This document shows positions 5,392 through 27,780 of a DNA stretch of 54,327 bases, piece by piece. The position numbers were made by a program, and so were the translations under genes. The stretch is from Candidatus Peregrinibacteria bacterium CG10_big_fil_rev_8_21_14_0_10_49_10. Lineage in GTDB: Bacteria > Patescibacteriota > Gracilibacteria > Peribacterales > Peribacteraceae. The stretch covers positions 1 through 54,327 of the forward strand of contig PFDR01000065.1 of assembly GCA_002772545.1 (NCBI GenBank). The letters run 5' to 3'. Below the pieces are notes generated by a model. It saw nothing but the letters and a program-made list of their open reading frames with translations. It ran no database searches and was not told the DNA's origin. Position 1 is the stretch's first letter. Every line of letters starts with the position of its first letter.

Positions 5392-5817
5392 ATGTCCGAT
5401 GATACAGCAACTGCAGAGGCTGAGGCGGTAAAACTCTCCAAAGAAGAGAAGGCCGTCATCGACGCTCTGGAAAAACTCAACGTTGTACAACTGAACAATG
5501 TCGTCAAATTCATGGAATCTGAGTACGGCATTTCTGCTGCTGCTCCGGTAGCCGTGGCTGCTGCTCCCGCTGCAGGTGGCGGTGACGAAGGCGGAGCTGC
5601 AGAAAAGAGCAGCTACGACATAGAACTCACGGAAGCCGGCGGCCAGAAGATTGCCGTTATTAAGGTCGTACGTGAAATCACTGGTCTCCCACTTGGTGAA
5701 GCCAAAGCAGCCGTAGATAATGCTCCCAAGGTAGTAAAGGAAGGTGTGCCAAAGGAAGAAGCAGAAACAATGAAGAAGAAGCTGGAAGAAGCCGGAGCCA
5801 AAGTGACTCTGAAATAA
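5392..5817 (+). CDS. rplL: 50S ribosomal protein L7/L12
   Basis: Stalk protein that recruits translational GTPases. At 141 aa it is slightly longer than usual. The N-terminal dimerisation helix region ([20 protein letters not shown]) is followed by an Ala/Gly hinge (about 52-70) and the C-terminal factor-binding domain ([20 protein letters not shown], then [20 protein letters not shown]). It lies 26 bp after rplJ in the same operon and is followed by a strong terminator. Confidence 0.97.
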
Positions 5818-9757: not shown

Positions 9758-9802
9758 TTGACCGTGCACAATCGTACACCTACTATGGTGGACGATTGTC
9801 CC
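9758..9802 (+). promoter_or_regulatory. lexA promoter with overlapping palindromic operator
   Basis: TTGACC (9758-9763), 17-bp spacer, TACTAT (9781-9786). A candidate LexA box TGGAC-GATT-GTCCC (9789-9802) covers the start point, and the same palindrome precedes rmuC. A second, larger imperfect palindrome (9768-9799) with arms ACAATCGT/ACGATTGT and inner CACC/GGTG spans the -10. Autorepression by LexA is the natural reading (inference). Confidence 0.75.
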
Positions 9803-9814
9803 CCTTGCATACCT

Positions 9815-10423
9815 ATGTCTCCCCTCACTCCTCATCAGCGCACAGTACTTACCTACATTGGTGAATTCCAACGGAAGCGCGGGTACTCACCATCACTTTC
9901 AGATCTCGCTATTGCCTTTGGCGTGCGCAGTAAAAACGCCATCGCCAAAGTGATTACAGTACTGGTCCGCGAGGGGCACATAGAAAAAGACCCCAAGGGG
10001 CGTATTAAAATTCTGGAAAGAGCAGAAGCACTGGATGCTCCCCAGCCTATGGTGCTGCCTCTCTTCGGTCCCATTTCTGCGGGCTTTGCTGCCCCTGTAG
10101 AAGAGCAGGCAGAAGAACTTGTAAAATTGGATGATTACCTTATACGTGATCAGGCAGCAACATTTTTACTGCGGGTAAGAGGTGACAGTATGATAGACGC
10201 CGGCATCTTCGAAGGAGATCTGGTGATTGCAGAACGTGGAAAGGAGCCCAAAGCCAATGAAGTGGTTGTGGGAGTTCTGGACGGAGAATTTACTCTCAAA
10301 CGCCTAAAGAAAGAGAAGGGAAAGTACTACCTGCAGGCCGAAAATCCTGAGTACCCGGATATGTATGCACTGGAAGAGCTGAAAGTAGCGGGAGTAGTGC
10401 GGGGAGTCATTCGGAAATACTAG
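9815..10423 (+). CDS. lexA: LexA repressor
   Basis: SOS repressor that self-cleaves when stimulated by RecA filaments. 202 aa: winged-helix DNA-binding domain (LTPHQRTVLTYI ... YSPSLSDLAIAFG), a linker with the Ala-Gly cleavage site in ISAGFAAP, and the S24 peptidase domain with catalytic Ser in GDSMIDAGI and Lys in FTLKRL. ATG 9815 matches the conserved MSPLTPHQ start; an upstream TTG at 9758 is the -35 box and is rejected. It is followed by a four-helix-bundle gene and a Y-family polymerase on the same strand. Confidence 0.95.
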   Translation: MSPLTPHQRTVLTYIGEFQRKRGYSPSLSDLAIAFGVRSKNAIAKVITVLVREGHIEKDPKGRIKILERAEALDAPQPMVLPLFGPISAGFAAPVEEQAEELVKLDDYLIRDQAATFLLRVRGDSMIDAGIFEGDLVIAERGKEPKANEVVVGVLDGEFTLKRLKKEKGKYYLQAENPEYPDMYALEELKVAGVVRGVIRKY

Positions 10424-10427
10424 CTTC

Positions 10428-10893
10428 GAATTAAGAATTAAGAATTATGAATGAAGATTAGCATGGCACAAGTAGTACAAAATAAAACGGCTCCGCACAA
10501 GAAGATACAATCTTTCACAGATCTAGATGCTTGGAAAGCAGGGCATAATCTTGTCATTACCGTTTATGAAATTGCAAAAAAATTCCCAAAATGCGAAGAA
10601 TTTGAACTAGCAAAGCAGCTAAAAAGAGCAGTGACATCTATTACTTCAAATATTGCGGAGGGATTCAGTAGGCAGTCGTATAAGGAAAAAATGTATTTTT
10701 ATAGGATAGCGCTCGGTTCACTTACAGAGGTGCAAAATCAATTACTGATTGGTAGGGATGTACAACTGATTACTCAAGATATTTTTTATAGAGCGACTAA
10801 TCAGGCTGTTACTGCAAGTAAAATCATCAACGGACTCATCAAATCAACAGGGATGAGAAGAATGCAAGTTCCTAATTCTTAATTCCTAATTCC
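10428..10893. mobile_element. Heptamer-flanked four-helix-bundle element, copy 1
   Basis: Left arm 10428-10454: GAATTAA GAATTAA GAATTAT GAATGAA (7-bp words). Right arm 10873-10893: TAATTCT TAATTCC TAATTCC. The arms are inverted repeats of the word RGAATTA and enclose one S23-family gene whose stop codon is inside the right arm. It sits between lexA and a translesion polymerase. Mobility is inferred from the shared architecture with copies 2 and 3. Confidence 0.65.
10451..10882 (+). CDS. Four-helix-bundle protein (S23/IVP family), copy 1
   Basis: 143-aa member of the four-helix-bundle family first known from ORFs in 23S rRNA intervening sequences and structurally related to Avd. Family marks: FTDLDAWKAGHNLVITVYEI at the start of helix 1, then AVTSITSNIAEGFSRQS, and ALGSLTEVQNQL. 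Biochemical function is unknown; related Avd binds nucleic acid. ATG 10451 or 10463 could be the start, both next to the left heptamer arm. The stop TAA belongs to the right arm. AT-rich codon use differs from the neighbouring GC-richer lexA and polymerase genes, consistent with an insertion. Confidence 0.88.
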   Translation: MKISMAQVVQNKTAPHKKIQSFTDLDAWKAGHNLVITVYEIAKKFPKCEEFELAKQLKRAVTSITSNIAEGFSRQSYKEKMYFYRIALGSLTEVQNQLLIGRDVQLITQDIFYRATNQAVTASKIINGLIKSTGMRRMQVPNS

Positions 10894-10900
10894 CTGCCTC

Positions 10901-12091
10901 GTGATAACGCATATTGATGCTGACGCTTTCTTCGCCTCCGTACTCCAGCGGAAGTACCCCAAACTCCGCGGAAAACCCCTTTTGGCACTGGGAATGGGCG
11001 GTGGGTGTGTTATTGCAGCCAGTTACGAAGCGAAAGCGATGGGCGTACGTACGGGCATGCGCCTGGTGGAAGCCCGCAAGCTCTGTAAGGGTGCGATAGA
11101 AATGCCCTCGGATTTTGAGGAAACGGCCGTCGCTTCGCATCAGATTGCTTCCATTCTCGGAGAACAATGTCCGGTACTGGAAAAAATGTCGGTGGATGAA
11201 TGGTTTGCGGATCTCAAATTATTGCAGGGAGGACTCCCAAAGAACCCGGGGCTGTGGGCACAGAGAATGCAGGAAGATATTGTTCTGCGTGTCGGCATTT
11301 CTGTCTCTGTCGGCATAGCACAGAGCAAATTGCTCGCTAAAATGGCCAGCGAGTACCGCAAGCCTGCAGGAGTAACAGTGGTAGAACAGAAGGACATCGA
11401 AGCATTCTTACGGGATCGTCCTGCAGCAGCTATTCCGGGCATTGGAAAAAGACGTTCTCTGCATGCCGAAGCCAATCGCTGGGAAACAGCATGGGATATT
11501 GCCACCGCAGACACTGAGATCATCAACCGGCTCTTCGGCAAACCCGGAAGGGAGATGCAGCTTGAGCTCCTTGGACACCGCCTCTATGAGGTAGAGACTT
11601 CTTGCACACCTCCCAAATCTATTTCACGGTGCCGGAGCTTTCGTGCCGACGAAAACCGGGGTGCCATCTTCTCCTCTCTGCTTGACCATGTGAGTTACAC
11701 CATCCTCAAAATGCGCCGCCATGGGCTCGTGTGCCGGGAAATAACAGTATGGCTGCGCAACGGTGAATATCGGCACAATGGCAGAAATGCCAGGCTCCCC
11801 CAGCCTATGGATACCGAAGAACAGATTTTGCCGTATGTGCGCCAGTGCTTCGGCCGTTTGTACGCCGAAACGCCCCGCTGTACGCAGACAGGACTTGCTC
11901 TCTGTGGGTTGCAGTCAAAGGGCGTACTGCAATACTCCCTTTTTGAAGACGTAAAACGCACGGGTTCCAGTGAACAGATTCAGGAAAAACTGGATGAACT
12001 CCACACACGTTTCGGAAGAATGTCGGTGACACGGGGGTCAGCCATACCGGCTAAAAAAGAGAGCAGGCCGCACCTCAATATTTTGCATTAA
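10901..12091 (+). CDS. dinB: Y-family translesion DNA polymerase (DinB/UmuC type)
   Basis: Error-prone polymerase that bypasses damaged bases. 396 aa starting at GTG 10901. Catalytic carboxylates are present in HIDADAFFASVL (family HIDMDAFFAS) and SVDEWFADL; the finger motif is ASYEAKAMGVRTGM, the helix-hairpin-helix region AAAIPGIGKRR, and a little-finger domain follows. The EWFADL variant departs from the usual EAYLDL. The position behind lexA suggests an SOS operon, now interrupted by the four-helix-bundle element. No good RBS is visible. Its 3' end overlaps the convergent valS by 4 bp. Confidence 0.88.
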   Translation: MITHIDADAFFASVLQRKYPKLRGKPLLALGMGGGCVIAASYEAKAMGVRTGMRLVEARKLCKGAIEMPSDFEETAVASHQIASILGEQCPVLEKMSVDEWFADLKLLQGGLPKNPGLWAQRMQEDIVLRVGISVSVGIAQSKLLAKMASEYRKPAGVTVVEQKDIEAFLRDRPAAAIPGIGKRRSLHAEANRWETAWDIATADTEIINRLFGKPGREMQLELLGHRLYEVETSCTPPKSISRCRSFRADENRGAIFSSLLDHVSYTILKMRRHGLVCREITVWLRNGEYRHNGRNARLPQPMDTEEQILPYVRQCFGRLYAETPRCTQTGLALCGLQSKGVLQYSLFEDVKRTGSSEQIQEKLDELHTRFGRMSVTRGSAIPAKKESRPHLNILH

Positions 12092-24341: not shown

Positions 24342-24370
24342 GTGGACAACTGTCCACCATTTGCTAGCAT
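24342..24370 (+). promoter_or_regulatory. rmuC promoter with candidate LexA box
   Basis: Perfect palindrome GTGGACA-AC-TGTCCAC (24342-24357). Its TGGACA half also reads as a -35 (24343-24348) with a 16-bp spacer to TAGCAT (24365-24370), 6 nt before ATG 24377. The core TGGAC-N4-GTCC is shared with the lexA operator at 9789-9802, so repression by LexA is proposed. Confidence 0.65.
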
Positions 24371-24376
24371 AGAGAT

Positions 24377-25495
24377 ATGGAAACCATAGTCGCATTTATC
24401 GTGGGGCTCGGGCTCGGGCTCGGGCTTGGCATCTGGGTCTATAAGAAGATCGCAACAGATTCCGAGAAGAATTTTAAGTCTCTCTCAGAGGAGGCACTGC
24501 GTTTGCAAACCGATCAGATTCTTAAGCTTACAGAGACCAAACTTGCCGGGAAGAAGGAAGCCATAGACGATACTCTAAAGACTATGCGGGGAGATTTGCA
24601 AAAGGTAGAAAAGCTGATGCGCGAGCTGGAAAAGGACCGGGAGCACAAGTACGGCGAACTGGGAAACAGGCTGGAAAACGCCGCAGAGGTGATTAAAAAA
24701 CTCAACACTCAAACAGAAGGACTCACCGCTGCACTCTCCAGTAACAGCAAGCGTGGTCAGTGGGGAGAGCGAATGGCCGAAGATGTTCTGCGGCTGGCGG
24801 GCCTTATAGAAGGAGTGAACTACATCAAGCAGAAAAAACTGGAAGATGCGGGCTCGCGACCGGATTTCACCTTTATGCTCCCCCACAATCTCAAGCTCAA
24901 TATGGATGTAAAGTTCCCCTTTAATAATTACGAAAGTTTTGTAGAAGCAAAAACAGACGCAGAGAAGGAGAAGTACAAGAAGGAGTTTTTAAACGACGTA
25001 AAGAAAAGAGTGCGGGAACTGCAAACGCGCGAATACATTAACCCCAACGACAACACGGTGGACTACGTACTGCTCTTCATTCCCAATGAACAAATTTTCA
25101 GCTTTATCAACGAAGTGGATCGTTCAATTGTAGATGAAGCTATGCAGGGCAAAACCATTCTGTGCTCACCACTCAGCCTCTATGCCATCCTTGCTGTTAT
25201 TCGCCAATCTATAGATAACTTCCAGTTCGAATCCAAATCACTCGAGATGCTCAAAGTCTTTGGCACCTTTAAAACACAATGGGAACGGTATAAGGAACAA
25301 ATCGCTACCGTGCGTGATCGCTTTGAAAAAGTACATAAAGAGTATGAAGATCTTGTAGGGGTACGGGAACGCCAACTGGATAAACCACTGGAGAAATTGG
25401 AGGAATTGCGGCAGGAAACAGACACTCTCCCCAGGAAGGTGATTACAAAAAAGATAGACGAAGTTCGGGAAGCGCAAAACGTAAAGACAAGGTAA
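24377..25495 (+). CDS. rmuC: DNA recombination protein RmuC
   Basis: RmuC limits recombination between inverted repeats in E. coli and has a PD-(D/E)XK-like nuclease core. 372 aa: N-terminal membrane anchor (VAFIVGLGLGLGLGIWV, encoded by a GGGCTC hexamer repeat), a coiled coil (about 35-120), then RGQWGERMAEDVLRLAGL, PDFTFMLP, LNMDVKFPFNNYE and LLFIPNEQIFSFI. ATG 24377 follows the -10 box by 6 nt. pcrA starts 11 bp after the stop, so both form one operon under the candidate LexA box. A factor acting on inverted repeats is of interest in a genome with many of them. Confidence 0.94.
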   Translation: METIVAFIVGLGLGLGLGIWVYKKIATDSEKNFKSLSEEALRLQTDQILKLTETKLAGKKEAIDDTLKTMRGDLQKVEKLMRELEKDREHKYGELGNRLENAAEVIKKLNTQTEGLTAALSSNSKRGQWGERMAEDVLRLAGLIEGVNYIKQKKLEDAGSRPDFTFMLPHNLKLNMDVKFPFNNYESFVEAKTDAEKEKYKKEFLNDVKKRVRELQTREYINPNDNTVDYVLLFIPNEQIFSFINEVDRSIVDEAMQGKTILCSPLSLYAILAVIRQSIDNFQFESKSLEMLKVFGTFKTQWERYKEQIATVRDRFEKVHKEYEDLVGVRERQLDKPLEKLEELRQETDTLPRKVITKKIDEVREAQNVKTR

Positions 25496-25506
25496 GATAC
25501 TTCCCC

Positions 25507-27780
25507 GTGCCTACCGCTCCCCACCCCACACTCGAAGGCTTAAATGAAATGCAGAGAAAGGCTGTGCTGCACGAGAAGGGGCCTGCACTCATTCTTGCAG
25601 GAGCCGGTAGCGGAAAAACGCGGGCACTCACGCACCGCATTGCCTACCTTATAGAACAGGGCGTCCCCCCGTGGCAGATTCTTGCGGTCACATTTACGAA
25701 TAAGGCGGCAAAGGAAATGAAAAACCGCATTGTAAACCTGCTGCATATTACCGGAGGGGAAGATCCAGGCAGTCTGTTTACTCTGAACCCGGGAAAACTG
25801 CCTGTTATGGGCACATTTCACTCCGTGTGTGTGCGCATGCTCCGCCGTGATATAGAGCATATTGGTGGAAACCGCAGCTTTGTTATTTACGATGCAGATG
25901 ACCAGGAGAAACTCATGAAGCAAGTACTCAAAGAAATGACCATAGATGAAAAAGAGCTTAAACCGCGTGCCGCACTCTCGTACATTGGCCGGTTTAAGGC
26001 GGAAGCCATGAGTCCCAAAGAAGCCGAGGGGCAAGCCACTACGGCACATATGCACCATGTGATAGATGCGTACAAACGCTACCAGTCTGCACTCAAGCAA
26101 GCCAATGCACTGGATTTTGATGATCTGATTCTCAAAACAGTGCATCTGTTTCATGAGTGTCCTGTAGTACTGGATCGGTACCAGGAAACATGGCGCTTTC
26201 TGCACGTAGACGAGTACCAGGATACGAACCATGCACAGTACTTGCTCATGTCTTTGCTCGCAAAGAAGTACCGAAATCTCTACGTCATTGGTGACCCGGA
26301 CCAGTCCATCTACTCTTTCCGTGGTGCGGACATCCGCAACATTTTGGAGTTTGAAAAGGAATACCCGGATGCCGTGCGCATAAAGCTGGAACAGAATTAC
26401 CGCTCCACGCAGCCCATACTCACGGCAGCAGATGCGGTGATAGCTGCGAATCCAAGCCGACCCGAAAAGCAGATGTGGACAGAGCGAAAAAAGGGTCCGC
26501 AGATCATTGTGAATGAAGTGGAAAATGAACGGAAAGAAGCAGAGGAGGTACTCGTATCTGCTCAGAAGTTGCGCGGAGAAGGCGTGCGCCTGAATGACCA
26601 AGTTGTTCTGTACCGCACAAATGCACAGTCCAGACTCTTCGAAGAGGCCTGCATGCGCAGCGGTATACCCTACCGCATAATTGGGGGTGTAAAGTTCTAC
26701 GCCCGCAGGGAAGTAAAAGACCTCCTGGCGTATCTCTACGTCATTTTAAACCCGCAAGACACACTCTCACTTCTGCGCATTATAAATGTTCCCTCACGTA
26801 AAATAGGACAGACCACAATCAGTCGTCTGCAGGCTTATGCATCTGCAAACGGTCTGACTCTCTGGGAAACACTACAGGCAGTGGAAGACATTGCTGATAT
26901 CAATGCTCCCACAAAAGACCGACTCGTGCAATTTGTGCAGAAGATTCAGCACCATAGAGAACGCGCCGAGGAAGAAGTGGTTTCTATTCTCTCCGAACAT
27001 CTGCTTGCTTCCATTGGAATGGAGAAGTGGTTACGGGATGAAACAGAAGAGGGAGAAACGCGCTGGCAGAACGTACAGGAGCTTCTCTCTGTAATGCACA
27101 AGTACGACAAACTGGACCCCCAACTTTCCCTTACGAGTTTTCTGGAGGAAGTCGCTCTCGTTTCAGAGGTGGATAAATTACATGAAGTAGAGGATGACGC
27201 TCTCACGCTCATGACCTTACACCTCTGTAAAGGACTTGAATTTGAGGCAGTGCACATTGCCGGTTGTGAAGAGGGAATCTTTCCACATAGCAATAGCCTC
27301 TTCGACCGCCAGCAACTGGAAGAAGAACGGAGAATAATGTATGTAGGAATGACACGGGCGAAAACGCATCTGCACATTCTCTGTGCCCGCTCCCGTATGC
27401 TCTGGGGAAACACGCAGAGCAATGCACCCAGCAGATTTTTGGATGACCTGCCGGAAGAGGTGCTGGAACGAAGAAGTGATGACGTACTGAGTGCATTTGC
27501 CTGGGCAAGTAAAAGCGGCTTACAGAAGGCCATTCACGAAATAGAACCCTTCCGCCAGCAGAGCGGCGAACGAATGGACATGGAATTCAACCAGGACATA
27601 CGTTTTGGCGACGATGACACGAATCAGGACGAAAATCTCCGGATAGGAAGCCGCATAGAACATCCCGTCTTCGGAGAAGGGACAGTTACTGCTCTCCGAG
27701 GAGACATAGCAGAAGTACAGTTTGACACCGGAGGAAGAAAAAACTTTGCTCTGAGCATAGCACCGCTCAAGCTTCTGTAG
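25507..27780 (+). CDS. pcrA: ATP-dependent DNA helicase PcrA/UvrD
   Basis: Superfamily 1A 3'-5' helicase used in repair and in clearing RecA. 757 aa, GTG start at 25507. Walker A AGAGSGKTRA (residues 31-40), motif Ia AVTFTNKAAKEMK, Walker B DEYQDTNHAQY, motif III GDPDQSIYSFRGA, motif IV QNYRST, motif V LMTLHLCKGLEFEAVHI and motif VI VGMTRAKTHL. The C-terminal RIGSRIEHPVFGEGTV domain is typical of PcrA. Co-transcribed with rmuC. Confidence 0.96.
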   Translation: MPTAPHPTLEGLNEMQRKAVLHEKGPALILAGAGSGKTRALTHRIAYLIEQGVPPWQILAVTFTNKAAKEMKNRIVNLLHITGGEDPGSLFTLNPGKLPVMGTFHSVCVRMLRRDIEHIGGNRSFVIYDADDQEKLMKQVLKEMTIDEKELKPRAALSYIGRFKAEAMSPKEAEGQATTAHMHHVIDAYKRYQSALKQANALDFDDLILKTVHLFHECPVVLDRYQETWRFLHVDEYQDTNHAQYLLMSLLAKKYRNLYVIGDPDQSIYSFRGADIRNILEFEKEYPDAVRIKLEQNYRSTQPILTAADAVIAANPSRPEKQMWTERKKGPQIIVNEVENERKEAEEVLVSAQKLRGEGVRLNDQVVLYRTNAQSRLFEEACMRSGIPYRIIGGVKFYARREVKDLLAYLYVILNPQDTLSLLRIINVPSRKIGQTTISRLQAYASANGLTLWETLQAVEDIADINAPTKDRLVQFVQKIQHHRERAEEEVVSILSEHLLASIGMEKWLRDETEEGETRWQNVQELLSVMHKYDKLDPQLSLTSFLEEVALVSEVDKLHEVEDDALTLMTLHLCKGLEFEAVHIAGCEEGIFPHSNSLFDRQQLEEERRIMYVGMTRAKTHLHILCARSRMLWGNTQSNAPSRFLDDLPEEVLERRSDDVLSAFAWASKSGLQKAIHEIEPFRQQSGERMDMEFNQDIRFGDDDTNQDENLRIGSRIEHPVFGEGTVTALRGDIAEVQFDTGGRKNFALSIAPLKLL

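Follow-up and report, generated by a model that had tools for sequence, protein, structure and literature searches.

A predicted lineage-specific LexA operator and candidate SOS gene set in Candidatus Peribacteria

The lexA locus and its promoter

The window analyzed here is a single contig of 54,327 nucleotides from a draft genome of 1.25 Mb (98 contigs, ~90% complete), and the source organism is a member of Candidatus Peribacteria, a placement based on the closest named relatives of its lexA, all from Peribacteria/Peregrinibacteria metagenome-assembled genomes. The lexA region of the window contains the following features:

9758..9763, plus strand: -35 hexamer TTGACC of the lexA promoter; TTGAC is kept across the lexA promoters of the family
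9764..9779, plus strand: candidate upper lexA operator GTGCACAATCGTACAC; exact match to GTGnACN4GTnCAC, aligned position kept in the family
9781..9786, plus strand: -10 hexamer TACTAT of the lexA promoter, from the promoter scan
9788..9803, plus strand: candidate lower lexA operator GTGGACGATTGTCCCC, the palindrome of the initial annotation
9815..10423, plus strand: lexA, with LexA_DNA_bind and Peptidase_S24 domains
10451..10882, plus strand: small ORF between lexA and dinB, found at the same spot in 6 relatives
10901..12091, plus strand: dinB, Y-family polymerase (Pfam IMS, 2.5e-39)

The lexA product is complete (202 aa), matches PF01726 (E 1.3e-11) and PF00717 (E 2.1e-27), both above the Pfam cut-off, and aligns over its whole length to solved LexA structures. 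Ala89-Gly90 (self-cleavage) and Ser125/Lys162 (catalytic) were read from the sequence at the places expected for a LexA, consistent with the alignment to the solved proteins; by its Pfam domains and solved relatives the LexA is intact.

The lexA promoter is sigma-70-like (TTGACC-17-TACTAT, 9758-9786). The palindrome that the initial annotation had placed over the lexA start point was recovered as GTGGACGATTGTCCCC; it begins 1 bp past the -10 hexamer and, because the promoter lies at 9758-9786, covers the inferred start point. We predict with near certainty that LexA uses this palindrome as an operator. A better match to the motif defined below, absent from the initial annotation, is GTGCACAATCGTACAC, which sits within the 17-bp spacer of the promoter. 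The upstream regions of approximately 40 lexA orthologues share the conserved pattern TTGACnGTGnACnnnnGTnCACCTAnTATGGTGnACGnnnGTnC, which corresponds to the two predicted operators, and of 51 lexA promoters examined from the family, 47 have the pair at a spacing of 24-25 bp.

At each of the 34 loci where dinB was found, it lies downstream of lexA in the same orientation, in most cases after a gap of 0-130 bp; this agrees with the earlier proposal of lexA-dinB as one controlled unit, and dinB is probably co-transcribed from the lexA promoter. The small intervening ORF probably encodes a four-helix protein of the 23S-intervening-sequence type. ORFs of this type recur in loci L034, L039, L052, L058, L070, and L072 and are missing from other relatives; where one intervenes, dinB starts ~450-470 bp after lexA.

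The rmuC-pcrA locus

The second locus of interest in the window comprises the following features:

24342..24357, plus strand: candidate rmuC-pcrA operator GTGGACAACTGTCCAC, a perfect palindrome overlapping the -35
24343..24370, plus strand: rmuC promoter-like TGGACA-16-TAGCAT, from the promoter scan
24377..25495, plus strand: rmuC (Pfam RmuC, 6.8e-67)
25507..27780, plus strand: pcrA/uvrD-type helicase (Pfam UvrD-helicase, 3.8e-92)

The perfect palindrome reported in the initial annotation to overlap the rmuC -35 is thus present as described. The pcrA gene follows rmuC directly, and in many relatives it likewise comes after the box-bearing gene. In genomes that have no Pfam RmuC match, such as two of the host genus, the rmuC position is occupied by a protein without a Pfam match that by eye shares a short PDF...D.K motif with RmuC, and pcrA is still next in most of those checked.

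The palindrome could alternatively be the stem-loop of a minus-strand terminator, since the terminator scan reports, at 24358-24341 of that strand, a terminator-like stem and an accompanying T-run. However, the site is located upstream of both rpsO and rmuC, which are divergent, so that no minus-strand transcript end is expected there. Moreover, a box between rpsO and the gene in the rmuC position recurs in many relatives and was detected for 15 of the 16 rmuC orthologues examined. On these two grounds we rejected the terminator reading as extremely improbable and treat the palindrome as a candidate operator.

Definition and enrichment of the motif

The initial annotation had derived a shared core, TGGAC-N4-GTCC, from the two palindromes. 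Exact copies of TGGACN4GTCC gave 3 strand-hits in the window compared to 0.38 expected, a number reached in 2 of 100 shuffles. With one mismatch allowed, the core was not enriched in the window (8 hits vs 10.1 expected), and across the whole genome TGGACN4GTCCA was found at 3 sites, as many as for the reversed-pattern control. These two counts speak for the palindromes being unrelated short inverted repeats that had arisen by chance in 54 kb of DNA, and TGGAC-N4-GTCC was rejected as the motif for want of genome-wide enrichment.

Position tables for the upper lexA operator revealed that the three outer bases and the inner AC/GT are nearly invariant and that the fourth base is unconstrained. The motif thus reads GTGnAC-N4-GTnCAC and replaces the earlier core. 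The lower lexA operator has a weaker outer right arm in these tables. The corrected motif is enriched in the host genome (7 sites vs 1 in the reversed-pattern control), and summed over 57 genomes of the family there are 351 exact sites compared to 49 for the pattern read backwards. Its commonest form, GTGTAC-N4-GTACAC, predominates at comM and recA. Several boxes in the host genome are located inside ORFs and are probably there by chance.

Gene-by-gene reconstruction of the candidate regulon

Candidate target loci were fetched by protein or Pfam family rather than by motif, and the box was scored within -300..+40 of each gene with at most 1 mismatch, for which shuffled sequences gave a chance level of ~1%. 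Counted over related genomes, and hence not as independent events, the box precedes lexA at 47 of 48 loci of the family, recA at 29 of 30, comM at 29 of 30, and rmuC at 15 of 16. The comM gene had first been met through the motif, and its 30 tested loci were collected by Pfam PF13541 alone. For ssb the count was 19 of 30, or 19 of 26 once four single-OB ssb genes, whose match was confined to the second half of the query, were set aside. None of these four sampled single-OB genes has a box; the gene that bears it is the tandem-OB ssb, which carries two OB folds in one chain (C1:4433 in the host genome). A single box is common to comM and the divergent yraN (UPF0102).

When up to two mismatches are allowed per box, 27 of 30 recA promoters contain a pair of boxes at a spacing of 77-84 bp, which suggests a fixed two-operator arrangement; in the host genome these boxes are located at 5769 and 5851 of contig C52. 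Neither comM nor uvrB had a match in the host assembly, probably because the assembly is incomplete.

Three genes served as built-in negatives of the test. A box was found at 0 of 33 dinB, 0 of 28 uvrA, and 0 of 20 uvrB loci of the family. For uvrB, the ORF call fell on the wrong strand in approximately half of the stretches, and thus the whole stretches were scanned too, with no box in 26.6 kb. We accordingly rejected an operator of its own for dinB and dropped uvrA and uvrB as targets; control of these two genes by the operator, a usual although not universal trait of SOS systems, is not found in the family. Of the repair genes that the initial annotation had suggested scanning, recA thus proved to bear the box, and uvrA, uvrB, and dinB did not. 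The same annotation had taken absence of the motif from the lexA, recA, and uvrAB promoters of relatives as evidence against its proposal; the box is present at the first two and missing from the uvrA and uvrB promoters.

Boxes were also observed beside other genes. One is conserved in the interval that separates argS from a divergent, lipoprotein-like gene without a Pfam match (C62:9397 in the host genome, and loci L100, L112, L124, L125, and L205). Related genes in four genomes (L141, L150, L157, and L200) carry a box near their start, and the one tested is an N6_N4_Mtase DNA methylase. A gene that by eye appears RhuM/Fic-like has a box at its start (L099 1501).

Restriction to the family and the LexA recognition helix

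All 13 sampled genomes of the family contain the exact palindrome GTGTACN4GTACAC, with 33 sites in total; of 86 genomes that represent 22 other families of the class, one has it. The proposal of a lineage-specific box common to lexA and rmuC-pcrA is therefore upheld in its corrected form. The lineage counts, the genome-wide excess of the corrected motif, and its recurrence at matching positions throughout the family (94-98% for lexA, recA, comM, and rmuC vs ~1% expected) together refute the chance reading, to which we assign a practically negligible probability.

In the recognition helix, S39, K40, N41, A44, K45, and V46 are invariant in 50 LexA proteins of the family and mostly different in outgroups. 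Nine sister-family lexA promoters, read by eye, bear altered palindromes, several of them on the same two-operator frame: GGTGAG-N6-CTCACC in the sister families f4, f13, f16, and f18 (L233-L236, L238) and ATAnAC-N4-GTnCATA-like sites in f5 and f19 (L232, L239, L241, L243). Box and recognition helix thus appear to change together between families.

This apparent joint change bears on whether the palindrome could instead be the operator of a regulator other than LexA that controls lexA, recA, and comM in the family. Such a regulator would accommodate G004 and G042, two genomes of genus g3 that have boxes at recA and comM and in which LexA was not found; both assemblies are drafts, with completeness of 97% and 75%, and either an assembly gap or the loss or replacement of LexA might explain them. 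Against it stand the presence of the box at the promoter of lexA itself in nearly all relatives, in an autoregulatory geometry, the inclusion of recA, ssb, and pcrA, all classic members of SOS systems, among the remaining targets, and the parallel differences in box and helix. We therefore consider a regulator other than LexA very unlikely and LexA the probable binder of the box.

Comparison with known LexA operators

The cyanobacterial LexA box is RGTACNNNDGTWCB, represented by AGTACWNWTGTACT (PMC3091678). The peribacterial box has the same GTAC-N4-GTAC core when position 4 is T, and likewise combines a 4-bp spacer with palindromes at the lexA, recA, and ssb promoters. The conserved peribacterial arms instead reach out to GTG/CAC, and the bases conserved here do not correspond to the A/T at the ends of the cyanobacterial box. 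Inner arms of the GTAC/GTWC type are present at most comM and recA sites but not at lexA, and many sites are without GTAC because position 4 is free.

The B. subtilis form of the Gram-positive box, CGAAC-N4-GTTCG (quoted in PMC3091678), is also a palindrome with a 4-bp spacer and has the AC-N4-GT core in common with the peribacterial box. Its outer C/G is replaced by GTG/CAC in the peribacterial box, in which the fourth base is variable and GAAC/GTTC is just one variant among several. The sister Patescibacteria families f4, f13, f16, and f18 retain the lexA frame, with the upper palindrome directly behind TTGAC, whereas the inner bases of their lexA palindromes differ from the peribacterial box. 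On the best reading, the operator is lineage-specific and has its nearest counterparts in the cyanobacterial and Gram-positive boxes.

Sanchez-Osuna, Barbe and Erill reportedly dealt with the DNA-damage-inducible network of the Patescibacteria superphylum in 2017 (Environ Microbiol 19:3465, doi 10.1111/1462-2920.13826). That 2017 comparative-genomics paper on Patescibacteria, cited in a work that counts 17 LexA motifs (PMC8565304), may already describe the box and gene set.

Proposed mechanism and physiological implications

The motif, its positions and conservation, the associated gene set, and the restriction to the family are results of computation. We infer from sequence that LexA binds the box, represses the genes behind it, and releases them upon DNA damage. 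The data are best explained by a LexA-RecA SOS switch of the ordinary type whose operator is specific to the lineage and in which LexA controls the lexA operator pair and the repair-gene set; we assign this reading a probability of approximately 0.94.

In the proposed scheme, one LexA dimer would occupy the 16-bp palindrome GTGnAC-N4-GTnCAC within the promoter spacer of lexA and a second dimer the copy that lies 24-25 bp further downstream and covers the start point, and the two together would exclude RNA polymerase and bring about autorepression. At rmuC, LexA on the -35-overlapping box would block RNA polymerase, and the same box would govern recA, rmuC-pcrA, the two-OB-fold ssb, and the divergent comM/yraN pair. 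The spacing of the recA boxes, approximately eight helical turns, might speculatively allow cooperative or looped binding. Derepression of SOS genes through RecA-stimulated self-cleavage of LexA is well established. In Peribacteria, damage would lead to RecA filaments and to LexA self-cleavage at Ala89-Gly90, catalyzed by Ser125/Lys162, and the whole set would be released. Three observations count against control by LexA: the boxes at recA and comM in G004 and G042, the boxes inside ORFs of the host genome, and the conserved argS box, which an SOS regulon does not readily accommodate.

The LexA box differs from phylum to phylum. For an uncultured lineage, the present analysis yields a defined box, the associated promoter geometry, and a set of genes, together with sister families that have altered boxes on the same frame. 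How repressor and operators change together can therefore be tested on short DNA with purified proteins, and no culture of the organism is needed. The least expected part is the placing of comM/yraN within the candidate SOS regulon, for which we know of no precedent; a limited check of the literature gave none among the top matches. We tentatively propose, at somewhat less than even odds, a rebuilt SOS regulon for Peribacteria, centered on recombination and on DNA processing of the uptake type, in which LexA directly controls comM/yraN (a branch-migration helicase and a divergent YraN-type nuclease), the two-OB-fold SSB, the recA pair, and rmuC-pcrA, and from which excision repair is excluded. 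If this proposal is true, DNA damage would switch on DNA integration in an ultra-small bacterium.
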